DNA from: Desulfocurvus sp.
GTDB lineage: Bacteria; Desulfobacterota; Desulfovibrionia; Desulfovibrionales; Desulfovibrionaceae
Assembly (NCBI GenBank): GCA_020692325.1
Contig: JAIMKR010000001.1
Span: forward strand, 1 to 52,692
Length of the DNA: 52,692 bases
Direction: 5' to 3'
Shown here: piece by piece, positions 1-51,971 of the stretch
Layout: the number at the start of each line of letters is the position of its first letter
Position numbering within the stretch: position 1 is the stretch's first letter
Position numbers and translations under genes: made by a program
The notes under the pieces: model-generated
Seen by the model: only the letters and a program-made list of their open reading frames with translations
Databases searched by the model: none
Told to the model about the DNA's origin: nothing

Positions 1-36
1 TCCGGCGCCGGCAAGCACGCCGAGGGCGAGGACTAG
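1..36 (+). CDS. Possible C-terminal end of an upstream gene (partial)
   Basis: The first reading frame of the window is open from base 1 and ends with TAG at 34-36, giving only 11 residues rich in Gly, Ala and acidic residues. A gene end here is plausible because a same-strand gene begins 37 bases later, but nothing about its identity can be read. Confidence 0.25.
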   Translation, partial: SGAGKHAEGED

Positions 37-73
37 TCTTCGTCCGCCGGAATGTTCCGCGAGAGGGGGAGAA

Positions 74-856
74 GTGCATCTCAAAGCGAATGCCATACAA
101 ATTCGGTTCAACTCAATGCGCGCCAGGGAGTTCGAGAGGGACCTCTACCGTCCTGGTGTTATTTCACTGTCACGCTTGCTGTGGGGATCCGCGGGCGTTG
201 GCTTGCAACTGACAATACTCGCGATTCTGTCAAAATTGTTGGACATCCCCGTTCTCTTTCCCCCTCTCGCCGCCACATGCTTCATCAACTGCACGTGTGT
301 GTATTTGCGCGTGGCCCGTCCCAAGCCGGTCATCGTCGGACACTTTATCGCGGCGATTTGCGGGCTGTCCGGCGTTTGGCTTGGGAAACAGCTGGCGGGC
401 GGCGTCGAGTTCGTTCTCCCGCTCCAACTTGGCCTGTCCATACTGCTTGCCGCCGTGATGATGCAGATTTTCGACGCCGACCACCCACCCGCCGCCGCCA
501 CCGCCGTCATTCCGGCCCTGCTGCCATTACCAATGCCCATAAATGTATTCCCAGCGCACATGGCCTGGGGGGCGACATTCACCATCCTCTTCACCTTTGT
601 CTGGAACAGAATCTGGTTTGAATATCCAGTGAAGGATGAAGACCACCAAACCCGATACGCTGGTTTGTTCATGGAGAAGACGCAGGTGTGGGGAGCGGCG
701 CTCTGCGTGGCGGGTTTTGTCTTGATGAGCTGCCGACGGGTCGAACCGATGCTCTATGTCTGTGGGCTATGGAGCATGACGGCAGGTGTTCTTGTCATGG
801 GGTTGCAACATCTTGCGGCGCTCATTTTTAATGCGAAATCTCAGCCTCCATGCTGA
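74..856 (+). CDS. HPP family integral membrane protein
   Basis: A 260-residue protein with about six hydrophobic segments. It carries the hallmarks of the HPP family: a PPLAAT segment (residues 63-68), an ARPxxVIVGH segment (81-90) and HPPAAATAVIP (137-147) between membrane helices. Members are small membrane proteins; some have been linked to nitrite transport in plastids and cyanobacteria, but the bacterial role is not settled, so no substrate is assigned. Two further membrane helices lie at about 198-215 and 226-251, making it longer than the core HPP domain. The chosen start is GTG at 74, just behind a GGGGGAG purine run; an in-frame ATG at 116 has no ribosome binding site. It is followed by the sigma-54-type regulator on the same strand. 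Confidence 0.8.
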   Translation: MHLKANAIQIRFNSMRAREFERDLYRPGVISLSRLLWGSAGVGLQLTILAILSKLLDIPVLFPPLAATCFINCTCVYLRVARPKPVIVGHFIAAICGLSGVWLGKQLAGGVEFVLPLQLGLSILLAAVMMQIFDADHPPAAATAVIPALLPLPMPINVFPAHMAWGATFTILFTFVWNRIWFEYPVKDEDHQTRYAGLFMEKTQVWGAALCVAGFVLMSCRRVEPMLYVCGLWSMTAGVLVMGLQHLAALIFNAKSQPPC

Positions 857-868
857 ATAAGGCCAAAG

Positions 869-884
869 GCGCAATGTGCGCTTT
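869..884 (+). terminator. Weak hairpin after the HPP gene
   Basis: GCGCA (869-873) pairs with TGCGC (877-881) around a three-base loop, followed by a short T run. The stem is short and the T tract poor, so this is at best a weak intrinsic terminator. Confidence 0.3.
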
Positions 885-1023
885 ATCTGTGTCCATGAAG
901 TATTGTTTGCGGATATAGACGGAGAATTCCAGGAAGTACAGGTTCACAGGCAAATCAACCGAAGGATACCAAAGGCTAAAGTCCCCACAGACCGAACCTT
1001 GCGGGCTGCGCAAGGAAAATGTT

Positions 1024-1090
1024 ATAGCACATAGCCACTGTTTCTGTCGGTAGGAGTACCCACAGATCGCCAGTCGCTATAATGTGCTAT
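1024..1090 (+). promoter_or_regulatory. Candidate autoregulatory promoter with 9-bp inverted repeat
   Basis: A perfect -10 box TATAAT lies at 1078-1083, 35 bases ahead of the regulator's ATG; no good -35 box is present at 16-18 bases, which would fit an activator-dependent or weak promoter. The inverted repeat ATAGCACAT (1024-1032) / ATGTGCTAT (1082-1090) places one arm upstream and one over the -10 box. With a 3-base gap the similarity extends inwards (AGCCACTG versus AGCGACTG on the other strand). Binding by the regulator itself is inference. Confidence 0.45.
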
Positions 1091-1117
1091 GGCATGAATT
1101 CCATTTAGGGGACGGCT

Positions 1118-2755
1118 ATGGAGCAATGCTCGTTTAATATGAATTTTGAAAGCTTCCAGAATCTTCTTCTCAAGATGGCGGAGCAACGCTCGGTTGAAGA
1201 ATTATTGCCACTCGTCACCTGTTCTCTTGCCGCCAATCAAACCGTTGCTCTTGCCCGCATATGGATGAATGCTCCAGGCGATATCTGCGATACCTGCGGC
1301 GAATCCGATTTTTGTAAGGACAAAGCCCACTGTCTGCATCTGATGGCAAGCCATGGAGTCTCTCTCAATGGGAAAGATAGATGGGATGCGACCGAGCAAA
1401 GCAAATTCCGACGTTTCCCCATAGGCGTCCGCAAGGTCGGCGTCATCGCATCTTCCGGGAAGCCTGCGAACGTCTCCTCATTCAATGGAACAAGCGCATG
1501 GGTTGCTGACAGCGCGTGGGTGAGAAAGGAGCACGTCGCCAGTTTCGTCGGACAACCGTTGCTGTACAAGGGCGAGGTTCTGGGCGTCCTGGCGATGTTC
1601 ACCCGGACCATGCTGGAGGAAGGCACCCTCGGGCTGATGCGCATGATCGCCGACCATTTGGCATACGCCATCGCCAATGCGCGCGCCTTTGCCGAGGTGG
1701 AACGCCTGAAGAGTCAGATCGAAAATGAAAACGCTTACTTGCGCAAAGAAGTCCGCATCGCCCAATCCTTCAGCGGGATCATTGGGAAAAGTGTCGCGTT
1801 ACAACGCATATTGCAGGGGATCGATCTCGTCGCCCCCACCGACACCAGCGTGCTCATAAGCGGGGAATCCGGCACCGGGAAAGAGCTTATCGCCCGGGAA
1901 ATCCACAGCCGAAGCAATCGCTCCGCCAGCCCAATGATCAAAATCAATTGCGCGGCAATTCCTCGGGAGCTCTTTGAAAGCGAGTTTTTCGGGCATGTGC
2001 GCGGAGCTTTCACTGGAGCGAGCAAGGATCGCGAGGGGTTATTCCAGACTGCGGACCAAGGAACCCTGTTCCTCGATGAGGTAAGCGAAATTCCAATTGG
2101 CCTTCAGGGAAAGCTCCTACGGGTTTTGCAAGAAGGGGAGTATCAACGCGTTGGCGAGGAGCGGGTCAGAAAGGTTAATGTGCGTATTATTTCGGCCACC
2201 AACAGGCACCTGGATCAAGAGGTCCGTGCCGGCCGGTTTCGGAAGGACCTTTACTATCGCCTGAACGTTTTCCCCTGTGTTCTTCCCCCGCTCCGTGAGC
2301 GGATGGGAGACATCCCCCTCTTGGTCAGACATTTTTTGTGTCATATTTCCTGCAGGCTGAACCGGCCGGAACCCAGTTTGACCCCAAGCGATTATGAACG
2401 ATTGAGCCGGTACGGCTGGCCGGGAAATATCCGTGAACTTCAAAATGTTATCGAGCGGGCGGTTATCACGTCCCACTTGGGCGAGTTTGACCAAGGATTA
2501 ACCGACAAGGCCACGGCCACGGCGACGCCGAATGCCACCGAGCCGCCCTGCTTGTTCCCCGGGTATTCGGGAGGCCGCGTGTTGACGAATCGGGAACTAC
2601 GCGACCTGGAAAGAGAAAATGTGGTGCGAGCCCTACGTATATGCAATGGGAAAATATACGGACCCAGAGGTGCGAGTGAAAAGCTCGGGATAAAGCCGAC
2701 GACCCTGGTGTCGCGTATCAAGACGATGAAAATCATCTCCAGCGATTGGCAATGA
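1118..2755 (+). CDS. Sigma-54-dependent transcriptional activator with N-terminal GAF-like sensor
   Basis: A 545-residue bacterial enhancer-binding protein. The N-terminal ~190 residues look like a GAF sensor domain containing a cysteine cluster (C57, C60, C66, C72) that could bind a metal or Fe-S cluster. The central AAA+ domain has the Walker A motif GESGTGKE (249-256), the sigma-54 contact loop GAFTGA (296-301) and Walker B around 315-325 (TLFLDE). A Fis-type helix-turn-helix occupies about residues 510-540. Such proteins bind upstream sites and use ATP to open sigma-54 promoters in response to a signal. The ATG at 1118 follows an AGGGGA ribosome binding site. No clear GG-N10-GC promoter was found nearby, so the target is unknown; repeats around the gene suggest autoregulation. 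Confidence 0.9.
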   Translation: MEQCSFNMNFESFQNLLLKMAEQRSVEELLPLVTCSLAANQTVALARIWMNAPGDICDTCGESDFCKDKAHCLHLMASHGVSLNGKDRWDATEQSKFRRFPIGVRKVGVIASSGKPANVSSFNGTSAWVADSAWVRKEHVASFVGQPLLYKGEVLGVLAMFTRTMLEEGTLGLMRMIADHLAYAIANARAFAEVERLKSQIENENAYLRKEVRIAQSFSGIIGKSVALQRILQGIDLVAPTDTSVLISGESGTGKELIAREIHSRSNRSASPMIKINCAAIPRELFESEFFGHVRGAFTGASKDREGLFQTADQGTLFLDEVSEIPIGLQGKLLRVLQEGEYQRVGEERVRKVNVRIISATNRHLDQEVRAGRFRKDLYYRLNVFPCVLPPLRERMGDIPLLVRHFLCHISCRLNRPEPSLTPSDYERLSRYGWPGNIRELQNVIERAVITSHLGEFDQGLTDKATATATPNATEPPCLFPGYSGGRVLTNRELRDLERENVVRALRICNGKIYGPRGASEKLGIKPTTLVSRIKTMKIISSDWQ

Positions 2756-2940
2756 TCGGCCCGACCCTTTTCTCGGCAGCTGGAAGTCGGGGGGCATGCC
2801 CTCTGTTTTTGAAGTTGCCCAATTGTGGACCATCCGCAGGGTGAAATTCTCCATGCCTTGAGCTTTACCGATTTTAGGCTCAGACATTCGGTGAGCAGCC
2901 GGCACTCCGTTGGGCCCGCCAAGCCGAGGAAGGAACTACA

Positions 2941-3042
2941 ATGAAGAAAGTCTGTCGCAAGGCTGGCATCTGCCTCATGCGAAGCGCCCCCCAAAGAATC
3001 TGTACAGAAATCCGCACAACACGCTCTTTTTCATACGGATAA
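2941..3042 (+). CDS. Small ORF of 33 codons with a strong ribosome binding site
   Basis: ATG at 2941 is preceded, with six bases between, by GAGGAAGGA (2926-2934), one of the best Shine-Dalgarno sequences in this part of the window. The product is basic, contains three cysteines (C5, C11, C21) and has no membrane segment or signal peptide. The TAA stop (3040-3042) runs into the AATGTTATA repeats. It resembles no family I know. It could be a genuine small protein controlled with the neighbouring regulator, or the remnant of a longer gene. Confidence 0.3.
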   Translation: MKKVCRKAGICLMRSAPQRICTEIRTTRSFSYG

Positions 3043-3060
3043 TGTTATAAAATGTTATAG
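3041..3060. repeat. Two tandem AATGTTATA repeats at 10-bp spacing
   Basis: AATGTTATA occurs at 3041-3049 and again at 3051-3059, one helical turn apart. The second copy is part of AAAATGTTATAG (3049-3060), which also occurs at 1016-1027 ahead of the sigma-54-type regulator. Phased AT-rich repeats of this kind are typical protein binding sites. Confidence 0.5.
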
Positions 3061-3328
3061 TTAGAATTGGTTTTCGATTGACTTCGCCACAATAGTTTCA
3101 GTTATATCATCTAGTTAAGCGCTGATTACGCCTTTTCTGACGACCCAGGTCTTACACAATCCTACACAAAGTAGGGCCAGGGTATGATCGCCCAAAGCCC
3201 GTCTTTTTCCTTCCTTTCCCCCTTCGCTTTGATGCATGTGATTTCGGTGTATTAAACAAAGTCTAGACATTCTCAAGGCACACAAATCACGCGTCGGAGG
3301 TCCTTCCGCCCCCCCCCTTGCGTCCCGA

Positions 3329-4444
3329 TCAGCTCAGCCGGCAAACAGGCTGCGGGCGGCCCGGCGTGCTGAAGACGATCTGCCAAAGCTGGATGTCGCG
3401 CGCGCGAAAGGCCCCGGCGCAGGATTGCAGGTAGTATTCCCACATGCGGCGGAAACGCTCGCCGTAGGCCTCCTTCAACCTCGGCCAAGCCGCGCGGAAA
3501 TTCCGCAGCCAGGCCATGAGGGTCGGATCGTAGTTCGGCCCCAGGTTGTGCCAGTCCTCCATGACGAACACGCCCTCGGTCGCCCGGGCGATTTGCGCGA
3601 TGCTCGGCAACATGCCGTTGGGGAAAATGTACTTCTCGATCCAGGGATCGCAGGAGTGCATGGAGACGTTGCCGCCGATGGAGTGCAGCAGGAACAGCCC
3701 GCCGGGCTTGAGGCAGCGCGCCACCACACGCATGAACTCCCGGTAGTTCTTGCAGCCCACGTGCTCGAACATGCCCACGGACACGATCTTGTCGAAGGGC
3801 TCGTCGAGCAGCCGGTAGTCGCTGTCGCGAATCTCCACCGGCAGGCCGGCGCAGAACTCGCGGGCGAATTCGATTTGTCGTTGCGAGATGTTCACGCCGA
3901 CCACGCTGCATCCGTGTTTCTCGGCGGCGTAGCGCGCCAGTCCGCCCCAGCCGCAGCCGATGTCCAGCAGGCGCTCGCCAGGCTTCAGGTCGAGCTTGCC
4001 GCAAATGAGCGCGAGCTTGCGCTCCTGCGCCTCGGCCAGATCGCGCGTGTCCTTGAAGTAGGCGCAACTATATTGCATGTAAGGATCGAGGAAGGCGGAG
4101 AAGAGCTCGTTGCCCAGGTCATAATGCCTCCGGGCCACTTCCCCCGCCCGCGCGGGCGACTGCATGTTGAACAGGAAGGACGGCACGACCTCGCAGGCCA
4201 AGCGCAGGCTGCCCTTCACGCGCTGGTCCGCCCCGCTTCGCAGCACGCGGAAGATGAACTCGTCCACGCGCTCGCAGTCCCACCAGCCTGCCGTGTAGGC
4301 CTCGCCCAGCGCGAGGTTCCGGCGGGCCACCACGTTCTGGTACAGCCGGTCGTCATGCACGCGGATGTCCCACGGGTTGGGTCCGTCCACCCGAATATCC
4401 GCCCGGGACAGCAATTTCATGAGGAACGACTTCGACTGCGACAT
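3329..4444 (-). CDS. cfa: Cyclopropane-fatty-acyl-phospholipid synthase
   Basis: A 371-residue SAM-dependent methyltransferase that adds a methylene bridge to unsaturated acyl chains of membrane phospholipids; the family's E. coli member is of almost the same length. The SAM-binding loop DIGCGWGG is at residues 161-168, preceded by the family signature around RHYDLGN (106-112) and YMQYSCAYF (122-130), and the C-terminus keeps the AGAFRARDIQLWQIVF segment. ATG at 4444 follows a GGAGGTG ribosome binding site. It is the last gene of a minus-strand run MFS - crcB - DUF190/CBS - cfa, but the 69-base gap to the previous gene leaves co-transcription open. Confidence 0.93.
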   Translation of the reverse strand: MSQSKSFLMKLLSRADIRVDGPNPWDIRVHDDRLYQNVVARRNLALGEAYTAGWWDCERVDEFIFRVLRSGADQRVKGSLRLACEVVPSFLFNMQSPARAGEVARRHYDLGNELFSAFLDPYMQYSCAYFKDTRDLAEAQERKLALICGKLDLKPGERLLDIGCGWGGLARYAAEKHGCSVVGVNISQRQIEFAREFCAGLPVEIRDSDYRLLDEPFDKIVSVGMFEHVGCKNYREFMRVVARCLKPGGLFLLHSIGGNVSMHSCDPWIEKYIFPNGMLPSIAQIARATEGVFVMEDWHNLGPNYDPTLMAWLRNFRAAWPRLKEAYGERFRRMWEYYLQSCAGAFRARDIQLWQIVFSTPGRPQPVCRLS

Positions 4445-7565: not shown

Positions 7566-7674
7566 GCGTCGGCGCGGATGATCGCGCCCTCGACGGCTCG
7601 GACATCACCGGTCGTCGAATTCAGGCCATGCAGGAGTCATCAGCGGCTTTCGCGGTTCAAGGGGAACTCCATCC

Positions 7675-7696
7675 CCGGCGTTCCTCGGAACGCCGG
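7675..7696. promoter_or_regulatory. Strong 10-bp hairpin in the MFS/arsC divergent region
   Basis: CCGGCGTTCC (7675-7684) is followed after two bases by its reverse complement GGAACGCCGG (7687-7696). There is no T run on either strand, so it is unlikely to be an intrinsic terminator. It lies 130 bases ahead of the arsenate reductase start and could be an operator or an mRNA leader structure. Confidence 0.35.
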
Positions 7697-15171: not shown

Positions 15172-18100
15172 TTACCACTGCTTCTTGCGCTTCTCGGCCA
15201 GCGCCTGGGCCTGCTCCTCGAAGGTGGCGAAGCCCGAGTGATGCAAGGCGTCCTCCACCGTGAAGCTCCAATCCCAGCTGAAGTAGATGACCGGCTTGTG
15301 GAAGATGGCGCGGAAGTGCTCCATCTCCTGGCGGTAGAAGGCCTCCTTGGGATTCTCGATGTTGTCGCGCAGCTGCTCGCAGAAGCGGTCCAGCTCGCCC
15401 TCGTACCACTCGCGCAGGTCCTCGGCGGTCTTGTAGCGCTTGAGGATGTGGCCGTAGCCGTTCTCCTCCAGCAGGATCTCCAGACGCTGCAGATGCTGCT
15501 CGCGCAGCCACTCGCCCAACTTGGAAACGGGCAGGTTGAGCGCCTCGACCTCGGCGACCTGCTCCTTGGTCGCCTGGTACGTGTCGGGAACCACGGAGGC
15601 GGAGTCGATGCCGGCGATGGCCACGACGCCCCGCAGAATCTCGCTGTTGGACACACCCTGACCGCAGAACCCCACCTTCTTGCCGTACTTCTGGCCGGCG
15701 AAAATGGCCGAGAGAATGGTCCAGATGACCGCCGGATCCTCTTCGTCGTAGATATGCTGCAACCGCGGGTTGTCGCGATCGGTGGCCAGCACCATCTGGG
15801 TCATGTCGTTGGAGCCGATGGAGAATCCATCGACCTCGTTGATGAACTCCTTGCAGAGGATGGCGTTGCTTGGAATCTCGGCCATGAGGATGATCTTCAT
15901 GCCGTCCTTGCCGGATTCGAGGTTGTGCACGCTCTTCAGGTAGCGCTTCATGCTGCGCGCCTCCTCGAGGGTGCGCACGAAGGGCAGCATGAGCTGAAGG
16001 TTCTTGCCGCCGAAGATGCCGCGCGCCAGCTTGAAGGCCTCCAGCTCCCAGTCGTGGATGTTGCGGGAGACGCCGCGGAAGCCCAGCATGGGGTTGGACT
16101 CGTACTGTTCGAAGAGCAGACCGCCGAGCAGGTTGCGGTATTCATTGCTCTTGAAGTCCGTGGTGCGGTAGATGATGGTCTTGCCGTAGAAGGCCATGGC
16201 GAACAGGGCGAGGCCCTGGGCCAGCGTCTGAATGTAATGCTCCTTGCCGGTGCGGAACCCGCGCGACTCAAGCAGCTTGCGGATGCGCTCGGGCAAAGTG
16301 CGCACCATGTCCATCTCGCTCTTGAGGCCCATTTTGAGGGCCACCTCCTCGCGCAGGGCGGCGATGCGGGACAGCACGTCCACAATCTCGGGGTCGTCCT
16401 GCAGGCGGGCGGCGATCTTCTCAATCTCACGCTCGTGGTCCTGCTTGAGCTTCTTGGCCTCGGCGTAGGGATCGCAGGTGCCATCAAGCACGTCATTGTA
16501 GCCCATCACCACGGCGATGTGCGTTTTGAGGTCGACGGAGGTTTTGAGGGTCTCCATCCGGTCGGTGGCGTAGCCGATGTGCTCGTCGAGCTTCTTGTCC
16601 AGCTCGCGCAGCCGGCGGTGAATCGCCAGCACCTCGTCGGTGCCCTTGGTGCCCTCGCGCTCGGAGAGCTGGGCCAGTTCCTTGCCCAGACCGGTGATGG
16701 TGCCCACGTATTCGCGCAACTTGAGCCGCAGGGTGATGAGCCCGGTGGCCAGCTGTTCCTTCATGACCTTGGAGAGGTGCGTCTCGAATTCACGCAGTTT
16801 CTCGTCCACCAGCGCGCCGAGCACGCCGCGGTCGTAGGCCTCCAGCGCCAGCGGATGCACACTGATGTTGCCGAGCATGAACTCCGCGCGCAGCAGGCCG
16901 ATCTCGAAGTCGGGCACGCGGCGCAGGCGTGAAAGGAACAGCGACTGGCCGATGTCCGCCAGAATGAGGCCAATTTTGACCTTCGTGGGCGGAATGGCGG
17001 CCACATCGATCTCGCCGCCCACGTCCACCAGCGGCAGACGGCCCCTGTACACACGGCCGCGCGAGCCGTCCACGGTGACCTCCTGACCATCGAGGGAACG
17101 CAGCACCTCAAGGTGTTGCAGGCCGATGACGGCGGGGATGCCGAGTTCGCGGGAGGTAATGGCCGCGTGGCTGGTGTCGCCGCCAACGTCGGCCAGAATG
17201 GCGCTGGCGATGCGCATTCCGGGCACCATGTCGGGGTCGGTGCGCTCTGCGGCGAGGATGTCGCCCTTGTTGACCTTGTTCAGCTCCAGGGCGGAGCGCA
17301 GAAACTTGACCACGCCCTGACCGGCCCCGCGGGAGGCGCCATTGCCTTCGAGAATGAGTTCGGCCGCGGCCGCGGCCTTGGCCACGACCTCCTTGCGACG
17401 CATGAAGATGGTGCTGGGATGGACGTGCAGTTCCTCGTTCCAGCGGGTCTCGGGCCGGGCCTGCACGAACCACAGACGATCCGAGGAGTCGATGCAGAAC
17501 TCGGTGTCCATGATGATGCCACCGTAGGCCTTGGAGATGTTGCGCACTCCCCGGGCGACCTCTTCCGCCTGGGCCAGGGAGAGCGCCCAGCGGAACACCT
17601 CGTTCTCGTCGACGGGGATGACCTTGGTGCCGCCCTCGTCCTCGTCGTAGACGATCTTCTTGTCCTTGCAGCCCATGAAGCGCACCACGACCTCGGAGGC
17701 GTCGTCGCGCTGGAAGACGTAGAACTTGTCGGGGGTGACCATGCCGCCCACCACAGCCTCGCCCAGGCCGTAGCTGGCGTCGATGGAGACGAGGTCGTTG
17801 CGGTCGGTGCCGCGGCAGCCGGTGCTGGTGTCGGCGCTGAAGGCCGTGCCAGAAACCATGGGGTTGATCATGCGCATGATGCACACGGACAACGACGTGC
17901 TCTCGATGGCCCATTCCTTCTTGGCGTTCTCGGCGATGGAGTTGTCGCCGGTCTCCTCGGCCTTGTTCACGGCGTCGAGGATGGCCTCGCGGCGGTAGGT
18001 CATGCTGCGCAGGTTGTAGGCGCTGGCGCAATCCCAGTGGTAGGCCTCGACGACGCGATCCTCGCCGACGATGTTGAGGTAGGTGTCCTGCAAACCGGCG

Positions 18101-18768
18101 AAGGCTTTTTTGCGGCTATCCTCGCCCGCGGCGGAGGAGCGCACGGCCACGGGTTCGTTCTCCAGTCCGGCCTCGCCGCAGATGCCCAGGTAGGCGCTGC
18201 GCACGGCGTCGGCCACTTCCTGCGGCAGCGTGACGGACAGGATGGCGGCCTGTACGAGCACGGAACGTTTGCGCAGCTGGTCGATGCCCTCGGGGCTGGT
18301 GGCGAAGCCTTCGACCACGTTGTTGACGAAGGTACGCAGCTTGATGGTGTTGCCGCCGCCCTTGGCCGACTCGGCGTTGATGCGCTTGGCCACGCGGCGG
18401 GTGAAATTCTGCAGGAAGTCGGTGTCGCGGTTGGTCTCGTCGTCGGTCCAGTCGATGGAGCTGTATTCCTTGTCCACGGTGGACCGCACGAGGGCGGCGT
18501 TGACCTTGGTCTCGTCGAGCAGCTTGTGGAAGGCGATGGAGGAGATGGCGCGGAATTGCGGGGCGCGGATGTTCGGCACCTGGCTGATGATGGCGGTGTT
18601 GTAGTTCTTGCCACCGACGAGCAGCTCCGCGTCGGAACCGATGGCGACGATGTCCGCGCCGTTCAGGACGATTTTCTTGGTCGGATCGGTCTCCGCGGCG
18701 ACAGTGGGCTTCGCCTCCGTGGCGGCACCCGCCGCTTTGGCGGTCTGTTCCTTATGGGTCTTGGCCAT
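15172..18768 (-). CDS. Phosphoenolpyruvate synthase-like protein, enlarged
   Basis: A 1198-residue protein with the three parts of PEP synthase in order. The PEP/pyruvate-binding ATP-grasp part (about 35-450) has VAVRSSAAGED (207-217) and DASYGLGEAVVGG. The phosphohistidine domain has GGDTSHAAITSRELG with the catalytic His at 534. The PEP-utilising barrel shows GLLRAEFML near 625, YRTTDFKSNEYRNL near 900, GSNDMTQMVLATDRDN near 1030 and GFCGQGVSN with the catalytic Cys near 1085. Ordinary PEP synthases have about 800 residues; here a charged, helical stretch (about 640-860) is inserted between the first two barrel strands, and about 90 residues extend the C-terminus. The enzyme would make PEP from pyruvate and ATP, feeding gluconeogenesis. 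ATG 18768 follows GAGGAGGAG. It follows pyc on the same strand. In D. vulgaris a PEP-synthase-related gene likewise neighbours pyruvate carboxylase, from memory. Confidence 0.85.
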   Translation of the reverse strand: MAKTHKEQTAKAAGAATEAKPTVAAETDPTKKIVLNGADIVAIGSDAELLVGGKNYNTAIISQVPNIRAPQFRAISSIAFHKLLDETKVNAALVRSTVDKEYSSIDWTDDETNRDTDFLQNFTRRVAKRINAESAKGGGNTIKLRTFVNNVVEGFATSPEGIDQLRKRSVLVQAAILSVTLPQEVADAVRSAYLGICGEAGLENEPVAVRSSAAGEDSRKKAFAGLQDTYLNIVGEDRVVEAYHWDCASAYNLRSMTYRREAILDAVNKAEETGDNSIAENAKKEWAIESTSLSVCIMRMINPMVSGTAFSADTSTGCRGTDRNDLVSIDASYGLGEAVVGGMVTPDKFYVFQRDDASEVVVRFMGCKDKKIVYDEDEGGTKVIPVDENEVFRWALSLAQAEEVARGVRNISKAYGGIIMDTEFCIDSSDRLWFVQARPETRWNEELHVHPSTIFMRRKEVVAKAAAAAELILEGNGASRGAGQGVVKFLRSALELNKVNKGDILAAERTDPDMVPGMRIASAILADVGGDTSHAAITSRELGIPAVIGLQHLEVLRSLDGQEVTVDGSRGRVYRGRLPLVDVGGEIDVAAIPPTKVKIGLILADIGQSLFLSRLRRVPDFEIGLLRAEFMLGNISVHPLALEAYDRGVLGALVDEKLREFETHLSKVMKEQLATGLITLRLKLREYVGTITGLGKELAQLSEREGTKGTDEVLAIHRRLRELDKKLDEHIGYATDRMETLKTSVDLKTHIAVVMGYNDVLDGTCDPYAEAKKLKQDHEREIEKIAARLQDDPEIVDVLSRIAALREEVALKMGLKSEMDMVRTLPERIRKLLESRGFRTGKEHYIQTLAQGLALFAMAFYGKTIIYRTTDFKSNEYRNLLGGLLFEQYESNPMLGFRGVSRNIHDWELEAFKLARGIFGGKNLQLMLPFVRTLEEARSMKRYLKSVHNLESGKDGMKIILMAEIPSNAILCKEFINEVDGFSIGSNDMTQMVLATDRDNPRLQHIYDEEDPAVIWTILSAIFAGQKYGKKVGFCGQGVSNSEILRGVVAIAGIDSASVVPDTYQATKEQVAEVEALNLPVSKLGEWLREQHLQRLEILLEENGYGHILKRYKTAEDLREWYEGELDRFCEQLRDNIENPKEAFYRQEMEHFRAIFHKPVIYFSWDWSFTVEDALHHSGFATFEEQAQALAEKRKKQW

Positions 18769-18938: not shown

Positions 18939-18956
18939 TCAATTGTATATACAACA
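18939..18956. promoter_or_regulatory. Operator-like palindrome ahead of the PEP-synthase-like gene
   Basis: The perfect 12-bp palindrome TTGTATATACAA (18943-18954) is nested in AATTGT (18941-18946) / ACAATT (18954-18959). It touches a minus-strand TTGACG box (18942-18937) with a weak TATCGG 18 bases on. Fifteen of 18 bases match a second site at 19081-19098. The shape resembles sites of GntR-family repressors; the factor is not identified. Confidence 0.5.
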
Positions 18957-19124: not shown

Positions 19125-22100
19125 TCACATTTTCTGTCCGCAGACCGGGCAGAACTTGAACTCGTCGCTGGTAAGCGGGGCCTTGCAGGTGGGGCAGACC
19201 TTGTGGACGGGGCCGAGCTCAACGAGCAGCTCGCCCTCCTTCACCGGCACCATGATCTTGTCCTCCTGGTAATTGGCGCTCCTGAGCACGCGCTTGACCA
19301 TGCCGTCCACGGGCGCCTGCACGCTCTTCTCCTGCTTCATGATGGAGATGTTGCAGATCTCCTCGCCCTGTTTGACCATGTCGCCCGCGCGCACGTGCAT
19401 GACCCAGAGGTCGCCATTGCTGGGCGAGGCGATGTGGTAGACGTTCTTCGGATCGGCCATTTCCAGGGCGTCGCGATCGCTTCCGGCGGCCTCGCGCACC
19501 TTGACCTTGTGCGAGGAGGTCTCGGAATCCACGGAGTAGCGAACGGTGATGAGGCCCAGATCGTCCACATCGCTGATGTCGGTGATGCGCATGACGTGAG
19601 GCTTGCCGCAGCGACTGCCGAAGAGCAACGTCTCGCCCTTCTCCAGTCCCTCAAACCACACGTCGATGGGCAGGTTGTTGGCGTCGCCGTAGGTCTGCAC
19701 GAACTCAATGGTTTTGAGCGCGTCGCCGGGGTGGTTCAGGTAGAGCACGAACTCCTCGTCCGTGGCCTTGCGGCCCAACCGGGCGTCGAGGATGGCGGAC
19801 TCGGCCTTGAGGTCCATGTCCGGCAGGGTCTCCAGCGGGGAGACCTCGGTGCGGCTCTGGATGGCGACCTTCCAGTCGGAGCCGAAGGCGCTCTGGTAGA
19901 CCCAGTCGGGGGGGAAGCCCAAGGGCAGCCGGCCGTACTTGCCCAACAGCAGATTGCGGAAGGCGTCGTTGCTGTCGCGGTAGAGGTCGAGGCGCGCCTC
20001 GCGCTCCAGGTCGGTCAGGTCGGCCTCGGGCGCCAGATTCACGATATCCAGGATGTTCAGCAGGCGGCGCACCTCGCGCTCACCGCCGCGCTTGTACGCG
20101 CCGGTGACGGCCAAAAACGAGGTGTTCCAGGTGATCTGCGAGCCCGGGGTCACGTCGTGGTAGCGCACAATCTTGCGCGTGCCGGCCAGGAACTTGAGCA
20201 TGTAGGGCAGCAGGTGAATGTAGCCCTGCTTCATGGCCCCCTCCTGCGAGGAGGAGGTGGCGCCGCCGGGCATTCCGTGGCGCACCACGTCGTTGTCGAT
20301 GCCCTGGAAGTACGGCGAGCAATATTTGTCGTAGTAGGGCATGATCTGCTTGAGCACGAAGTTCGTGTTGCGGATCATATCCTTGTCGAGCATGGTCTTG
20401 AGCCCCATCTCGTCCTCGATGTACGCCGCCGTGGAGAGGACCTCGCCCTGGCCGTACCAGCGCACGCTGGAGCCGACGCCCACGTCGAGGATGTGCGCGC
20501 CGGCCTGCGCCGTGGCGCCCATGGTGGGCACGAACAGACCGTCGGTGCAGTGCCGGTGGCTGTGAATGACGAGCTCGGGGTATTTCTTGACCAGGGCGGC
20601 GATGAGCTCGCGCATGAAACGCGGCGGGCACACGCCGGCCATGTCCTTCAGCCCCAGGATGATGGAGCGCGAGGCCTTCTTCTTACTCACGCCCATCACG
20701 TCGGCGCACATGGCGATGATCTCGTCGGTGACGCCCAGGTAGTGCGGCACGTCGAAGCCCTTGGCCCAGGACATGGACAGCGCGGGCTCGAACACGTTCT
20801 TGTCCGAGTGCAGCACGGCCTCGGCGAAGGGACGCATGTTCTCGACGTGGTTGAGGAAGTCAAAACAGCGGATGATCTCGTAGTGCTCGCAGATCATCTC
20901 GGCGGTGAGACGCATGAGGTTCTTGGGCTGCGGCTTGTAGCCCAGCACGTTGGTGGAGCGCACCAGAATCTGCTTCAGCGTGGTGGGTGCGAAGCGGTTC
21001 CACTCCTTGGCCTCGGTGAAGGGGTAGGTCATGTTGGCCAGCATGGCCACGTGGAAGTGCGCGCCGCCGCCGTTCTCCAGAGAGAAGAAGCCGCAGCGAT
21101 CCAGGTAGGGGCCGACGATGCGGTCCTCGGCCAGGCGGAAGCGGTTGCCGCTGTTGCTCTGCGTCATGTCGCGGGTGGTGGTGTCGGTGAAGTGGATGAT
21201 GCCGGCGGCGCGGTCCTCGCGCAGGGCGTCGAGGATGGCGTCGCGCTTCATGCCGCGCACGAAGCGGGGCTCGAAGGTGGCGTCGGTGGTGTCCGGGGCC
21301 TTCACCAACTGGAAGCGGCCCAGGCGCTTGTCCGTCCGACCGCGATACTCGCCCAGGGAGACGAAGGGGTTGTAGCCGCGGGCGCTGATCTCGGCCACCA
21401 AACGCGCCAGGCGCACCGGCTCGGGCTCCTGGTCGATGTAGGTCATCAGCTCCTCGCGATGGTCGCGAACGAAGTTGGTGTCGTAGGTGCCGGCCACGAA
21501 GTCCGGGTGCTTCATCACCTCGCGGTGGAACTTGATGGTGGTTTTGAGGCCGCCAATCTTATACTCGCGCAGGGCGCGACGCATGAGCATGACCGTCTTG
21601 TCCCACGAGCTGCCGTAGGTGATGAGCAACGCGGCGGCGGAGTCGTAGCTGGAGGGGAAGCGGTAGCCCGAGCAGATGCACGAGTCGATGCGCACGCCCT
21701 GCCCGCCGGGGGAGACGTAGCTGGTGATGAGCCCGGCGTTGGGCGAGAAGTTGTCCTGTGGATCCTCGCAGTTCACGCGCACCTGCATGGCGTGCAGGTA
21801 GGGCTTGGTGTCGCGCTCGTTGAAGCGCAGCTTGGAGCCGAAGCTGATGGCGATCTGCTCTTCCACCAAGTCGATGCCGTAGCGGCATTCGGTGATGCCG
21901 TGCTCCACCTGCAGGCGGGTGTTGGCCTCGATGAGGTACGGACGGCCATCCTTGTCCACCAGGAACTCGACGGTGGCCAGGGAATGGTAGCCCACGGCCT
22001 TGATGAGTTTCTCGGCGTACCCTTTGAGTTCCTTGCGCAGTTCGGGAGTGAACTGGGGCCAGGGCGAGGGGGTGATCTCGACGAGCTTCTGGTGGTTGCG

Positions 22101-22829
22101 CTGCACCGTGCAGTCGCGCTCGTCGAAGACGAAAACGTTGCCGTACAGGTCGGCCACGGTCTGACATTCGATGTGGCGCACGCTGGTGAGCAGCTTTTCC
22201 ACGTACAGGCGCGGATTGCCGAAGCTGGCCTTGGCCAGGGCCGAGGCCTTCATAAAGGCGTTCTCCAGCTGCGATTCCTCGTAGACCTCGTAGATGCCGC
22301 GACCGCCGCCGCCGCCCTCGGCCTTGAGCATAATAGGGAAGCCGATCTCCTTGGCGATCTTGCGCGCCTCGGGGATGCTCACCGCCTCGGGAGAGCCGGG
22401 CACCACGGGCACGCCGATCTCCTCGGCGAGCTTGCGCACGGCAACCTTGTTGCCGAGTAGGCGCATGGGGCCCTGATTGGGGCCAATGAAAATGATTCCG
22501 GCCTCTTCGCACTTGCGCGGGAAGGAGTCGTCCTCGGAGCCGAAGCCCCAGCCGGGATGGATGGCGACCATGCCGCGATCCTTGGCCATTTTGATGATGC
22601 GGTCGAGATCGAGATACGCGCGGGGATCTTCGCCAAGGAGCAGGAGCTCGCTGGCGCCGGTAGTTGCGGGCGAGGTTTTATCCACGTCGGTGGCGGTCAT
22701 GACGGCCACGGCCTGGAACATCTCCGTGATGGAGCGGCAGATGCGGCGCGCCGGAATGCCACGGTTGGCAACCAGAATCGGCTTGCCCTTGACTTCCTGC
22801 AAAACCTGCTCGAACGACTTCGGTCTCAT
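19125..22829 (-). CDS. pyc: Pyruvate carboxylase with C-terminal zinc ribbon
   Basis: A 1234-residue biotin enzyme making oxaloacetate from pyruvate, bicarbonate and ATP. The biotin carboxylase part (about 10-470) shows the ATP-grasp loop AEGGGGGRGIYEV and the EANTRLQVEHGITE segment. The carboxyltransferase barrel (about 550-1010) has the metal-site HSHRH motif. A biotin carrier domain follows, but its acceptor motif reads SIMKQEKSV rather than the usual AMKM. The last ~25 residues add CPTCKAPL...CPVCGQKM, a four-cysteine zinc ribbon not normal for this enzyme. ATG 22829 is given; a TTG two codons upstream sits closer to AAGGGGGA, and a TTG at 22892 overlapping the birA stop is also possible. 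It is directly downstream of birA, its presumed biotin ligase. Confidence 0.93.
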   Translation of the reverse strand: MRPKSFEQVLQEVKGKPILVANRGIPARRICRSITEMFQAVAVMTATDVDKTSPATTGASELLLLGEDPRAYLDLDRIIKMAKDRGMVAIHPGWGFGSEDDSFPRKCEEAGIIFIGPNQGPMRLLGNKVAVRKLAEEIGVPVVPGSPEAVSIPEARKIAKEIGFPIMLKAEGGGGGRGIYEVYEESQLENAFMKASALAKASFGNPRLYVEKLLTSVRHIECQTVADLYGNVFVFDERDCTVQRNHQKLVEITPSPWPQFTPELRKELKGYAEKLIKAVGYHSLATVEFLVDKDGRPYLIEANTRLQVEHGITECRYGIDLVEEQIAISFGSKLRFNERDTKPYLHAMQVRVNCEDPQDNFSPNAGLITSYVSPGGQGVRIDSCICSGYRFPSSYDSAAALLITYGSSWDKTVMLMRRALREYKIGGLKTTIKFHREVMKHPDFVAGTYDTNFVRDHREELMTYIDQEPEPVRLARLVAEISARGYNPFVSLGEYRGRTDKRLGRFQLVKAPDTTDATFEPRFVRGMKRDAILDALREDRAAGIIHFTDTTTRDMTQSNSGNRFRLAEDRIVGPYLDRCGFFSLENGGGAHFHVAMLANMTYPFTEAKEWNRFAPTTLKQILVRSTNVLGYKPQPKNLMRLTAEMICEHYEIIRCFDFLNHVENMRPFAEAVLHSDKNVFEPALSMSWAKGFDVPHYLGVTDEIIAMCADVMGVSKKKASRSIILGLKDMAGVCPPRFMRELIAALVKKYPELVIHSHRHCTDGLFVPTMGATAQAGAHILDVGVGSSVRWYGQGEVLSTAAYIEDEMGLKTMLDKDMIRNTNFVLKQIMPYYDKYCSPYFQGIDNDVVRHGMPGGATSSSQEGAMKQGYIHLLPYMLKFLAGTRKIVRYHDVTPGSQITWNTSFLAVTGAYKRGGEREVRRLLNILDIVNLAPEADLTDLEREARLDLYRDSNDAFRNLLLGKYGRLPLGFPPDWVYQSAFGSDWKVAIQSRTEVSPLETLPDMDLKAESAILDARLGRKATDEEFVLYLNHPGDALKTIEFVQTYGDANNLPIDVWFEGLEKGETLLFGSRCGKPHVMRITDISDVDDLGLITVRYSVDSETSSHKVKVREAAGSDRDALEMADPKNVYHIASPSNGDLWVMHVRAGDMVKQGEEICNISIMKQEKSVQAPVDGMVKRVLRSANYQEDKIMVPVKEGELLVELGPVHKVCPTCKAPLTSDEFKFCPVCGQKM

Positions 22830-22888
22830 GGCCAAATCGGTCCCCCTTAATGCGGTTGCGTTATGTTTGCCCGTAGAACCGGTCCCGC

Positions 22889-23797
22889 TCAAACCGGGAT
22901 CACGTCGCCCGCCAAAAGCTCGATGCTTTGGCCGGTGCGGTTCAATACGAGCGCCCCTTCCGCCGACACTCCCTCGACGATGGCCTCGTACAGGACATTC
23001 ACGCCCTCCCGCACGAGCACACGGCGACCGGCCCAGGCCATCCTGGAGCGGAACATCGTCAGGAATTCGTTCGGAGAATGAACGTCAAATAATGAAGCAT
23101 AGCTCGTTTCAATCTGGTTTACAAGGGTACGCCACAGGCCGAGGGGGCCAATATTCGGGTCGCGCGGGGAAAATTTTCCGGCGGCAACCTTGAAGTCCGC
23201 ACGCATTTCCTCCGGCTCCGGCGCGTAAGCCAGATTCACGCCGATGCCGGTCAGAACGCAGCCCGGCCGCTCCTCCACGAGCATTCCGGCGATTTTCCGA
23301 TCATCACACAAAAGATCGTTCGGCCACTTGACGCGCACCGCCGGGCCCAGCGCCTGCAACGCCCCGGCGAAGAGCCAGCCGAACACCAGTGGCCGCAGGT
23401 CGTTCCACAACCCGGTCGCCTCCGGGCAGACCAGCGTGACATGCAGGTTGCCCGGACGCGAGACCCACGCCCGGCGCAATTGTCCCCGTCCGGCCGTCTG
23501 CTCGGGCGCGAGCACCGCGTCCCACGGGCGAAGCGCACCCGCCTCGACGAGCCGGCGCGCCACGTCCATGGTGCTGCCGCAGCGGCCCGTCACGACCACG
23601 CGCGGCGCGCCATCGTCAGGGCGATCCACCGGGACCAGGCACCGTCCCAGCGCGACGGGGTTTTCGATCTCCTCCAAAGGGCCAAGCGCCGCCACGTCCG
23701 CCGCCCACGAGGGGGACAAAGCACGCAACGTCTCCGGCCTCGCCGGTTCGGCCAGACCCGGCAGACCATCTGCGCACATCAATATATTACATGGCAT
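22889..23797 (-). CDS. birA: Biotin-[acetyl-CoA-carboxylase] ligase
   Basis: A 302-residue biotin protein ligase. The catalytic domain carries GRCGSTMDVARRL (about 90-102), AGRGQLRRAWVS (the biotinyl-AMP loop, a GRGxxxR motif), VKWPNDLL and KIAGMLVE, and a short C-terminal SH3-like part ending AGDVIPV. The ~80 residues ahead of the ligase core do not show the DNA-binding helix-turn-helix of E. coli BirA, so a repressor role is not supported. ATG 23797 has GGAGG/GAGGAAA upstream; longer readings run through the divergent nucleotidyltransferase gene. Its stop is 60 bases from the pyc ATG, suggesting co-expression with its substrate. Confidence 0.9.
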   Translation of the reverse strand: MPCNILMCADGLPGLAEPARPETLRALSPSWAADVAALGPLEEIENPVALGRCLVPVDRPDDGAPRVVVTGRCGSTMDVARRLVEAGALRPWDAVLAPEQTAGRGQLRRAWVSRPGNLHVTLVCPEATGLWNDLRPLVFGWLFAGALQALGPAVRVKWPNDLLCDDRKIAGMLVEERPGCVLTGIGVNLAYAPEPEEMRADFKVAAGKFSPRDPNIGPLGLWRTLVNQIETSYASLFDVHSPNEFLTMFRSRMAWAGRRVLVREGVNVLYEAIVEGVSAEGALVLNRTGQSIELLAGDVIPV

Positions 23798-23866
23798 GAT
23801 TTCCTCGCCTCCCGCCGCGCCCCACGCGGCTTTCCTTCGCGCGCGAAGCATGGTACGCCTCGCTTC

Positions 23867-24985
23867 ATGCGCATTCTTCTCGTCGGTGGAGCCGTGCGGA
23901 ACATGCTCCTCGGCCTGCCGGCGCGCGACAGGGATTACCTCGTGCTCGACGCGACTGTCGAGGAATTCCTCCGCGCGCACCCATCCGCGATGCCTGTGGG
24001 CAAGACCTTTCCCGTCTTCATCCTGAACGGGCAGGAGTTCTCGTTCCTGCGCGCCCCAACGCTCGCCGAGGATCTGCGCCTGCGCGACTTCACGGTCAAC
24101 GCCGTCGCGCTCGACGAGTCCGGCGGACTCGTGTGCCACCCGCGCGCGCTGGAGGATATTACCAGCCGCACCCTGCGCCCGGCGGGCGCGGACTCCCTGC
24201 GGGTCGATCCCCTGCGTGTGCTGCGCGCGGCCCGTTTCATCGCCCAGCTACCCGAATTCCACGCGTCGGACGAACTCACGGCGGCCATGCGCGACGCCTC
24301 GGGCGCGGTCGGCTCAGTCTTCGCCGATCGGGCGGGTCAGGAAACGCGCAAAGCCCTCGCCTCCGACCGCCCCGGGGAATTCCTGCGTCTGCTCGGCCGG
24401 GCCGGCTGTCTCAGCCCGTGGTTCGCCGAATTCGCCGACGCGGCCGACATCCCGGCCGGACCGCCCCAATATCACGACTGCAGCGTGCTGGAACACACGG
24501 CGCGCGTCATGGACCGCCTCGCCGCCGCCTCGCCTGGCGACGAGATGGCCGTATGGATGGGGCTGTGTCACGACATCGGCAAGACCAGCACCCCGCGAGA
24601 CGAGCTGCCCCGGCACATCGGCCACGACCTGCGCGGTGAAACGCTGGCCGTGACCCTCGGGGAACGCCTGCGCCTGCCGGCCCGGCTGATCCGCGCCGGC
24701 GGCGACGCCGCGCGCTGGCACATGACCGCCGCCAAATACCCGGAGCTGCGGCCGGCCACGCGCGTGGATCTGCTGCTGCGCCTGAAGAGCCGCGGTGTGC
24801 TGCGCGAGATGTTCCGGCTGGCCGCCATCGATCAGGGCGTGGATCACCTGCCGCTCGTGGAAGCCGACCTCGCCGCCATCCTCGCCGTGAGCCTGCCCCG
24901 CAAACTCCGCGACCTCGGCGCGCGCACTGGAGAGATTCTGCGCGATCTGCGCATCCGCGCCTTGCGCGAGTCCCCGCACACCTGA
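23867..24985 (+). CDS. CCA-adding-type tRNA nucleotidyltransferase with HD domain
   Basis: A 372-residue class II nucleotidyltransferase. GGAVRNMLLG (7-16) and the metal-binding DRD of RDRDYLV (20-26) start the catalytic head; LRDFTVNAVAL (about 67-77) and DPLRVLRAARF match the family. Residues ~200-300 form an HD domain with HDCSVLEH, CHDIGKTS and a later HIGHD, as in E. coli-type Cca with phosphohydrolase activity. It should add or repair the 3' CCA of tRNAs; this is consistent with, but not proven to be, full CCA addition as opposed to poly(A) polymerase activity. ATG 23867 is chosen by the family start; the ribosome binding site is weak. It diverges from birA. Confidence 0.85.
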   Translation: MRILLVGGAVRNMLLGLPARDRDYLVLDATVEEFLRAHPSAMPVGKTFPVFILNGQEFSFLRAPTLAEDLRLRDFTVNAVALDESGGLVCHPRALEDITSRTLRPAGADSLRVDPLRVLRAARFIAQLPEFHASDELTAAMRDASGAVGSVFADRAGQETRKALASDRPGEFLRLLGRAGCLSPWFAEFADAADIPAGPPQYHDCSVLEHTARVMDRLAAASPGDEMAVWMGLCHDIGKTSTPRDELPRHIGHDLRGETLAVTLGERLRLPARLIRAGGDAARWHMTAAKYPELRPATRVDLLLRLKSRGVLREMFRLAAIDQGVDHLPLVEADLAAILAVSLPRKLRDLGARTGEILRDLRIRALRESPHT

Positions 24986-31548: not shown

Positions 31549-31625
31549 CGGGATGTAGCGCAGACTGGTAGCGCACCTGAATGGGGTTCAGGGGGCCGGA
31601 GGTTCAAATCCTCTCATCCCGACCA
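31549..31625 (+). tRNA. tRNA-Pro (anticodon GGG)
   Basis: A 77-nt cloverleaf. The acceptor CGGGATG (31549-31555) pairs with CATCCCG before A-CCA, which is encoded (ends 31625). The D arm is GCGC...GCGC, the anticodon stem CCTGA/TCAGG encloses the loop ATGGGGT with anticodon GGG, and the T arm has GGTTCAAATCC. The C1-G72 pair and overall sequence match bacterial tRNA-Pro. It reads CCC and CCT codons. Confidence 0.96.
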
Positions 31626-49082: not shown

Positions 49083-50048
49083 ATGACCGACCCCGTTCCG
49101 GCCGCGCCCGACGCCGCCGCCCCACACGCCCGGCCATCGCCACTGGGACGCGCCGCGCTTTCCGCCCGGCTGCTCGACGCGCTCGTCGTGCTCGGCGTGG
49201 CGGCCTGCCTGTTCTGGCTGGCCGGCCGCGTGGGCGCGCGTCTCCAGTATCGCTGGAACTGGGCGGTCATTCCGCAGTTTCTCGTCCACACCGACGCCTC
49301 CGGCCACTGGCGCGCGGGGCGGCTGCTGCTGGGCTTTTTCGCCACCATCCGGCTCAGCCTGTGGGCCGGCGCGCTGGCGCTCTGCATCGGCACCCTGGCC
49401 GGGCTGGCCCGGCTGCACCCGCGCCCCTTCTGGCGGTTGTGGGGCGGCACGTATGTCATGGCCGTGCGCAACACCCCGCCGCTGGTGCTCATCTTCCTGT
49501 TCAACTACTTTCTCTCGGCGCAGCTCGTCGCCGCCCTGGGGCTCGATGCGCTGATGCCGCGCCTGGCCGCGCTCACCCCGTCGCTTCTGCGCGCCCCGGC
49601 CGAGGCGCTCTTCGGCCCCGCCGGGCAGGCTCCGGCCTTCGCCACCGCCGTGCTCACGCTCGCCCTCATCGAGGGGGCGTACGTGGCCGAAATCGTGCGC
49701 GCTGGCGTGCAATCCGTGGAGAGCGGCCAGTGGGACGCGGCCTACGCCCTGGGGTTCGGCCGGCGGCGGGCGCTGGCGTACGTCATTCTGCCACAGGCGT
49801 TCCGGCGCATGGTGCCGGCGCTCACCGGGCAGTTCGTCTCCACCCTAAAGGATTCGGCCATCGTGTCCGTCATCTCCATCCCGGAACTCACGTTCCAGGC
49901 GCAGGAACTCGTCTCGGCCACGTATCGCGCGTTCGAGGTCTGGACCCTCGTGTTCGTCCTGTATCTGGCCCTCGGACTGCCATGCTCGCTGGCCGCGCAC
50001 CGGCTGGAAAAACGGCTGGCCCGCGCGGACCGGCAACCCGCCCATTGA
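49083..50048 (+). CDS. Polar amino acid ABC transporter permease (second of two)
   Basis: A 321-residue HisMQ-type permease. The signature MAVRNTPPLVLIFLFNYF (about 126-143) and the coupling loop DAAYALGFGRRRALAYVILPQAFRRMVPAL (about 218-247) are clear. It is longer than the first permease because of an insert (about 145-185) between helices. Together with the first permease it should form the heterodimeric membrane channel. No ATPase gene follows in this window; it must be encoded elsewhere. Confidence 0.93.
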   Translation: MTDPVPAAPDAAAPHARPSPLGRAALSARLLDALVVLGVAACLFWLAGRVGARLQYRWNWAVIPQFLVHTDASGHWRAGRLLLGFFATIRLSLWAGALALCIGTLAGLARLHPRPFWRLWGGTYVMAVRNTPPLVLIFLFNYFLSAQLVAALGLDALMPRLAALTPSLLRAPAEALFGPAGQAPAFATAVLTLALIEGAYVAEIVRAGVQSVESGQWDAAYALGFGRRRALAYVILPQAFRRMVPALTGQFVSTLKDSAIVSVISIPELTFQAQELVSATYRAFEVWTLVFVLYLALGLPCSLAAHRLEKRLARADRQPAH

Positions 50049-50155
50049 ACAAATCAACGATGGTGCGGACTTTGACAGCGAACTGGTTTTCGCGCATGTT
50101 CGGGACAACGAAACAGGCCGCCAACACCGCGACCGCAAACGAAAGGAGCGCCGCC

Positions 50156-50410
50156 ATGGCCTCGGATGATGTGAAGGTTTTCGCGCTGTCCACCTGCATC
50201 CACTGCAAAAAGGCCAAGGCCTACCTCGACGAGTGCGGCGTCAAATACGACTGCGTGCATGTGGACCAGCTCACCGGCGACGAGCGCAAGGCCGTCATCG
50301 AGGAAGTCAAAAAGTTCAACCCCTCCGTGTCGTTCCCCACCCTGGTCATTCACGGCAAGGTGGTCGTCGGCTTCAATCAGGAAAAGATCGACGAGGCGCT
50401 CAAGGCATGA
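50156..50410 (+). CDS. Glutaredoxin-like protein
   Basis: An 84-residue redox protein. VKVFALSTCIHCKKAKAYLDECG (5-27) has the CxxC active site (CIHC), and VSFPTLVIHGKVVVGFNQEKIDEAL contains the cis-Pro of the thioredoxin fold and a glycine-lined C-terminal helix. ATG 50156 is set by AAAGGAG eight bases upstream. Its stop overlaps the start of the FTR-catalytic-chain gene (ATGA), so the two proteins are made together and probably exchange electrons. Confidence 0.92.
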   Translation: MASDDVKVFALSTCIHCKKAKAYLDECGVKYDCVHVDQLTGDERKAVIEEVKKFNPSVSFPTLVIHGKVVVGFNQEKIDEALKA

Positions 50411-51461: not shown

Positions 51462-51580
51462 GATTCCTCAATTTCAATCAAAGGCTACAGCGTGGGGCTT
51501 TCTGTACACCGAGAAAATGAAATGATGTTTTTTTAAGATTACCACCTTACGAATTGTCGATTACCATACTTTGCAACAAC
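51462..51580. other. AT-rich spacer after the foreign-looking gene
   Basis: The 119 bases continue the low-GC composition up to the terminator of the RRM gene. No gene, tRNA or att-like repeat was recognised. Confidence 0.4.
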
Positions 51581-51619: not shown

Positions 51620-51640
51620 TCGTTTAAAAGCGCGTAGGGA

Positions 51641-51910: not shown

Positions 51911-51971
51911 GCGATAAAACTCCTAAAAGAGAAAAAGAGAAAAATGGTCGCTCATTTCGCTTGAGCAAAAA

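Follow-up and report, generated by a model that had tools for sequence, protein, structure and literature searches.

The described enzymes closest to the one considered here are the phosphoenolpyruvate (PEP) synthases (EC 2.7.9.2) represented by PpsA of Escherichia coli and by the Neisseria meningitidis enzyme of structure 2ols, with which it shares the order of domains, the catalytic motifs and the fold. A three-domain swivelling layout is also shared with pyruvate phosphate dikinase (PPDK, EC 2.7.9.1). Two archaeal multimeric PEP synthases, 8a8e and 9dae (known here by their database titles), indicate that the family can build large assemblies, and a review presents PSRP, there called PDRP, as a regulator of PEP synthase in E. 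coli (PMC8100219). The gene analysed in this work lies at positions 15,172 to 18,768 of a 52,692-nucleotide stretch of DNA from Desulfocurvus sp., order Desulfovibrionales (contig JAIMKR010000001.1 of assembly GCA_020692325.1), hereafter the window. It encodes a PEP-synthase-like protein of 1198 residues, compared with 792 in E. coli PpsA. The enzyme family is known; a helical arm set into the PEP barrel and a C-terminal tail are new features of the Desulfovibrionales form, referred to below as the large form. Our analysis suggests that this protein is likely to be the main, and probably the only, enzyme forming PEP from pyruvate in this bacterium, as a member of a divergent PEP-synthase-like subfamily.

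The gene is an open frame of 1198 residues on the minus strand; an earlier note on this DNA had given a frame of the same length and position, and its strand is set right here: the plus strand is interrupted by a stop within these coordinates. A purine-rich ribosome-binding stretch, GGAGGAGGAGAGA, stands directly 5' of the ATG. Orthologues are present in 50 of the 59 nearest genomes (own genome counted; 42 of the 47 of high quality), so that the frame is a real gene and not a chance one. The parts of the gene and protein are listed below.

15172..18768, minus strand: enlarged PEP synthase gene, 1198 residues, ATG start, assigned by its domain matches
17395..18621, minus strand: PPDK_N, the ATP-grasp domain, residues 50-458, holding the larger part of the approximately 80 extra residues relative to E. 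coli PpsA
17056..17271, minus strand: mobile phosphohistidine domain PEP-utilizers, residues 500-571, with GGDTSHAA and the predicted phosphohistidine H534 (codon 17167-17169)
16831..17001, minus strand: PEP barrel part 1, residues 590-646, with strands 1 and 2 and R627 of GLLRAEF
16264..16830, minus strand: all-helical arm, residues 647-835, between barrel strand 2 and helix 2, placed by alignment and model
15541..16263, minus strand: PEP barrel part 2, residues 836-1076, with R868, R898, E964, N987, D988 and C1035
15175..15540, minus strand: C-terminal helical extension, residues 1077-1198, rich in aromatic residues, placed by alignment and model

Three Pfam domains follow one another in the order of PEP synthases: PPDK_N at residues 50-458 (315.1 bits, cut-off 27), PEP-utilizers at 500-571 (80.5 bits, cut-off 23.1) and PEP-utilizers_C at 847-1075 (163.5 bits, cut-off 22.8). 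In an alignment of 47 large-form sequences (A1, from which L108 was left out), H534 of the mobile domain, K54, R210, E423, Q436 and R438 of the ATP-grasp domain and R627, R868, R898, E964, N987, D988 and C1035 of the barrel are invariant in 47/47 rows. These residues presumably have the roles known from enzyme I and PPDK, H534 being taken as the phosphohistidine. The motif around it reads TSH, compared with TCH in E. coli PpsA. Most 20-residue blocks of the core are 0.7-0.97 identical to the window protein among its relatives, with lower ones down to 0.29; this lowest block of the core falls in the extra stretch at residues 121-140. Block identities were taken over 67 sequences (66 relatives), leaving out the short L054, the open-ended L090 and L114 and near-duplicates.

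The structural comparison points the same way. An AlphaFold model of the whole protein, made with 47 sequences (mean predicted local distance difference test score, pLDDT, 78.0; predicted template-modelling score, pTM, 0.69), superposes on 2ols with a Z of 33.2 over 619 residues (root-mean-square deviation 3.8 Å). The nearest solved sequences found by comparison with the PDB are PEP synthases, and the PEP barrel domain aligns with those of 8a8e and 9dae (Z 27.8 and 32.6, respectively). The earlier view of a PEP-synthase-like protein with an added domain is thus borne out by the Pfam domains, the invariant catalytic residues, the model and the match to 2ols.

A search of the bacterium's own genome revealed seven proteins with PPDK_N, and only the large PEP synthase among them also has a PEP barrel. 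The two other barrel proteins carry enzyme I domains of the phosphotransferase system, one of them also HPr. No match to PEP carboxykinase of the ATP or GTP type, no other PEP synthase and no PPDK were found in this genome; in the domain scan, 715 residues of the frame L003 were scanned, the open frame being 884. As no other PEP-forming enzyme was found among those sought, the large form is probably the pyruvate-to-PEP enzyme of this genome. PEP-synthase function is therefore supported by the domains, the invariant catalytic residues, the fold match to 2ols and the standing of the protein as sole candidate in its own genome. The layout and the catalytic residues are visible in the sequence, and from them we infer the reaction itself: the ATP-grasp half would bind ATP, H534 of the mobile domain would carry a phosphate, and the C-terminal barrel would be the site at which pyruvate is phosphorylated (pyruvate + ATP + water -> PEP + AMP + Pi). 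In Desulfovibrio vulgaris, DVU_1833 is listed as PpsA with a mass of 132.6 kDa and 184 peptide-spectrum matches, and DVU_1834 beside it as Pc, pyruvate carboxylase, with 111 (PMC10920352); by name, mass and neighbour, DVU_1833 is the counterpart of the large form.

The six other PPDK_N proteins of the genome are encoded outside the window (L002, L004, L005, L006, L007 and L143; 705-921 residues). Five of the six also carry a mobile phosphohistidine domain and none has a PEP barrel match, and their C-terminal region is unassigned; they appear to be a family expansion.

Comparison of motif spacings located the extra length of the large form, whose core is 36.4% identical to that of E. coli PpsA. 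HPxALxxFD is separated from FKxNEY by 224 residues, compared with 49 in E. coli PpsA, a net gain of 175. For 28 canonical PEP synthases of the Desulfovibrionales, a slightly wider pattern put the same spacing at 50 in 21/28; in the remaining 7/28 a residue substitution kept the pattern from matching, and no long insert is visible in the stretch concerned. After the last PD[TSA] the large form continues for 135 residues against 13 in E. coli, a gain of 122 in the tail. By arithmetic on lengths, approximately 27 further residues stand before VGGKN and approximately 80 mostly in the ATP-grasp half.

In the model, the barrel strands occupy residues 598-603, 623-627, 865-868, 924-928, 959-962, 981-985, 1031-1035 and 1056-1059, and the arm leaves from the loop between strand 2 and helix 2, before strand 3. 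The earlier note had rightly seen a long helical insertion in the PEP-binding barrel, with borders at about 640-860 that are now set at 647-835; its placement after barrel strand 1 is contradicted by the model. It had also seen the C-terminal extension, which is present and measures 122 residues (1077-1198) instead of about 90. The refuting outcome named earlier, an extra segment that belongs to the ordinary barrel, is not borne out, since canonical relatives are without the segment and the prediction gives it a self-contained helical fold.

When the arm slice 640-842 was predicted alone, it was all-helical with a pLDDT of 87.1 and a pTM of 0.77. Its length is 201-204 residues in 47/47 aligned sequences, and ten of its positions are invariant in these rows, namely Q672, R685, R718, R721, H750 and five glycines or leucines. 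Block identity in the arm is 0.22-0.61 among the 66 relatives, the weakest part being a hairpin at 761-800, and the mean distance in the arm is 0.75, compared with 0.17-0.27 for the three core domains. No convincing match in the PDB was obtained for the arm, only weak all-helical ones: the best E values were 0.16 against Pfam, 0.4 (single sequence) and 0.019 (profile) against PDB sequences and 0.27 with Foldseek, and the best Z with VIA-align 2 was 7.0, maybe a common arrangement for helical bundles. Such a lack of matches does not establish a new fold. The archaeal enzyme 9dae has a short loop at the insertion site, unlike the large form, and no description of the insertion was found in the literature searched.

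In the tail (residues 1081-1198), block identity is 0.53-0.73 among the 66 relatives. W1087, Y1105, W1121, H1157, K1158, Y1162, W1165 and W1167 are invariant in the 47 rows. It gave no match in Pfam. Hits to PDB sequences with unrelated names (E 0.0055 single, 0.055 profile) were taken as chance.

Unbroken orthologues of the near genomes are 63-91% identical to the window protein. In G003, G005, G011 and G050 the gene is broken up, the copy of the last being split over two contigs. G056, at first sight a large form without the tail, was rejected because its contig ends inside the gene. A scan of named genome contigs, through which alone other phyla were covered, yielded relatives on 163 stretches; 80 of these were retained. 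The closest belong to Desulfovibrionaceae and Humidesulfovibrio metagenome-assembled genomes (91% and 87%), and the titles among the kept 80 are those of Desulfovibrionales genera or broad labels of such assemblies; two of these, L087 and L093, name other orders. In a phylum sample of 395 genomes, 17 encode the full-length protein and three more matches are canonical-length enzymes. The arm profile matches 17/395 genomes and the tail profile 18/395, 17 being the same genomes; all 17 belong to the family of the window, the other families of the order being covered by the near-genome set.

A core tree (FastTree, 776 columns, the one method used) was computed from 12 large forms, 28 canonical enzymes, E. 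coli PpsA and three others. The large forms make up a single clade with a support of 1.0. Tip branches inside the clade measure 0.06-0.15 substitutions per site and its stem measures 1.55, a length that leaves its placement open to long-branch error. Core identity to canonical enzymes is 32.7-37.5%, irrespective of whether the comparison is with the same order, E. coli or other lineages. Judging from the sequences, the large form appears to be a single-origin variant of PEP synthase spread over the Desulfovibrionales, the only order in which the subfamily was found. It would have arisen once, on a long stem, with two fixed additions, the arm of 189 residues and the tail of 122.

Several observations weigh against this account of the enzyme and its additions. 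The whole protein scores below the cut-offs of the NCBIfam PEP synthase models, with 591.9 bits on NF005057 (cut-off 598) and 562.7 bits on TIGR01418 (cut-off 739.75). Removal of arm and tail brings it just over the first (598.3) and leaves it under the second (572.0), whereas the canonical Desulfovibrionales enzymes P0004 and P0003 reach 1144.2 and 1200.6 bits on NF005057. As the trimmed core itself scores so low, the catalytic core must be divergent, and the missed equivalog cut-offs are the reason for which we file the large form as a divergent subfamily adjoining PEP synthase rather than inside the equivalog. The distribution of PEP synthases is mixed. Of the near genomes of high quality, five lack the large form. 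Three of them, G027, G045 and G047, speak for the assignment, as they carry canonical PEP synthases of 805-816 residues (P0003-P0005), which belong to the same enzyme family and order, lack arm and tail and fall outside the large-form clade; the other two, G022 and G025, speak against it, as they showed only enzyme I-sized PEP-barrel frames, with neither form of PEP synthase found. A strong canonical enzyme (at least 932 bits) occurs in 28 of 150 Desulfovibrionales genomes at least 90% complete. Sixteen of these 28 were examined for the large form as well: 13/16 carry both forms and 3/16 the canonical one only. Mutual exclusion of the two forms, suggested by G027, G045 and G047, was thereby ruled out, and where they coexist the large form may have a job of its own. 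A change of function could also lie behind the long stem. The eighteenth tail match, in G140, is tail-only and marginal (E 7.8e-4). Finally, PSRP (PF03618) is absent from 101/101 Desulfovibrionales genomes searched, own genome counted, in a search that gave matches in 3/14 named genomes, E. coli among them; this absence is in favour of our account but is no proof that something has taken the place of PSRP.

These points leave some room for a functionally shifted enzyme, that is, a phosphohistidine phosphotransferase still acting on pyruvate but with another phosphate acceptor or direction, such as PPDK-like use of phosphate or formation of pyruvate from PEP and AMP; the insertions would then belong to this change. 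The length of the stem, a core that scores half of what canonical PEP synthases score on their own models and the frequent coexistence with the canonical form would fit such a shift. We nevertheless find it improbable, as the PPDK model TIGR01828 gives only 94.7 bits against a cut-off of 843.45, every listed catalytic residue is kept and no other PEP-forming enzyme, among those sought, was found in the own genome.

For the arm and tail of this PEP synthase we tentatively infer, as the likeliest, an intrinsic role in a lineage without a detected PSRP regulator: they may help the enzyme to form oligomers, or govern how the phosphohistidine domain swings at the catalytic rim of the barrel. The earlier note had offered two ideas for the arm, a regulatory element and a docking arm for the neighbouring pyruvate carboxylase. 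The former may apply, the usual regulator, PSRP, being missing from all the genomes of the order that were searched; the latter can be weighed against the neighbourhood of the gene, whose elements are as follows.

19125..22892, minus strand: pyruvate carboxylase (pyc) gene, directly upstream of the PEP synthase gene, 1255-residue frame, TTG start as listed
22889..24139, minus strand: biotin-protein ligase (birA) gene, upstream of pyc, assigned from Pfam and neighbourhood
18943..18954, no strand: possible operator, the perfect palindrome TTGTATATACAA, located after pyc and before the PEP synthase gene

Conservation extends to the gene order birA-pyc-PEP synthase. Where at least 1500 bp of upstream sequence were available (71 of the 80 loci, 9 being shorter), pyc stands directly upstream in 63/71, and birA lies upstream of pyc in 58/58 testable loci. 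No pyc was seen in the locus in the remaining 8/71, among them L051, which has a birA-like match upstream. The pyruvate carboxylase of the window ends in a CPTC...CPVC zinc-ribbon-like tail behind the biotin domain, a strict pattern present in 23/64 relatives.

Docking would mean that pyruvate carboxylase is bound by the arm, alone or together with the tail, in a complex at the pyruvate node, so that anaplerosis and gluconeogenesis share pyruvate or have it channelled between them. Besides the adjacency of the genes, the co-divergence of the proteins could speak for it. After removal of near-duplicates (60 rows reduced to 43 species), arm distances correlated with pyruvate carboxylase distances with a partial r of 0.60, compared with 0.36 for the tail and 0.29 for the mobile domain, and for each of the three 0/1000 permutations did as well. 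In the set where pyruvate carboxylase and BirA were both readable (46 rows reduced to 33 species), the corresponding values were 0.64, 0.31 and 0.23, and the arm reached 0.38 with BirA. Rate-matched core columns put the arm ahead for BirA as well. Given the slow core columns, the arm scored 0.942 with pyruvate carboxylase against a rate-matched core mean of 0.884 (sd 0.018; 0/200 draws as high), and 0.814 with BirA against 0.760 (sd 0.023; 1/200 draws as high), which is about the same margin. Since the arm surpasses the core with BirA as well, most of its signal with pyruvate carboxylase is not specific, and we do not take the co-divergence as proof of docking. When the rate-matched core columns and the arm enter the model together, the arm retains 0.77 with pyruvate carboxylase and 0.48 with BirA, compared with 0.44 and 0.21 for the fast core; when pyruvate carboxylase was cut to the 416 columns available for BirA, the arm kept 0.69. 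BirA is an imperfect control, as it acts on pyruvate carboxylase. We read the co-divergence of the arm as mostly reflecting its quality as a clock, with a possible small remainder specific to pyruvate carboxylase.

Other observations also speak against docking. Loci without a visible pyc retain the arm, the slice measuring 201-203 residues in seven of these eight loci (the seven being rows of A1), and the hairpin at 761-800 is the least conserved part of the arm. Co-localisation is to be expected for enzymes of one metabolic node, and the adjacency is equally explained by shared metabolism; it is a pathway link and no proof of docking. The main text of a D. vulgaris co-purification paper names neither DVU1833, DVU1834 nor pyruvate carboxylase (PMC5083090). 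Of the earlier proposal, then, the conserved adjacency and the tracking of pyruvate carboxylase by the arm stand, but the similar margin with BirA and the persistence of the arm without a visible pyc make docking an unlikely explanation.

There is little to recommend the view of the arm as a structural spacer that is tolerated in a surface loop and does nothing by itself, for although it evolves faster than the core and canonical enzymes have a short stretch at the same site, its slice is fixed in length with ten invariant positions, and arm and tail occur together in 17/17 genomes.

The palindrome TTGTATATACAA may be an operator. It was found with 0-2 mismatches in 6/78 upstream regions, compared with 11/780 shuffled ones, and the six regions all come from close relatives (84-91% protein identity). 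Its distance from the start falls in two classes, 172-186 and 326-327, and it is followed by TTGACG on the minus strand. The stretch that separates pyc from the PEP synthase gene gave no riboswitch or other RNA at E 1. Elsewhere in the window, a fluoride riboswitch (RF01734, 56 bits) lies at 7624-7685 on the minus strand and a tRNA gene (RF00005, 62.1 bits) at 31549-31622 on the plus strand. G+C content is 0.50-0.57 in 1-4000 and 50001-52000, compared with 0.60-0.70 in the remaining 2-kb blocks, and a search for defence systems with PADLOC gave no match.

PEP synthesis is the step that commits pyruvate to cell material in these bacteria, and an addition fixed throughout the order, with no convincing structural match, is a place to seek a missing control or an assembly at the pyruvate node. 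D. vulgaris, in which the counterpart is well detected by proteomics, offers a tractable model. Should the additions prove inert, they would provide a clean case of a central enzyme tolerating a large insertion in its barrel. The broadest reading, of which we are rather doubtful, is that arm and tail are an order-specific module that ties PEP synthase to pyruvate carboxylase or allows it to regulate itself without the PSRP switch; if true, it would reveal an uncharacterised control of the PEP-pyruvate-oxaloacetate node, built into the enzyme.

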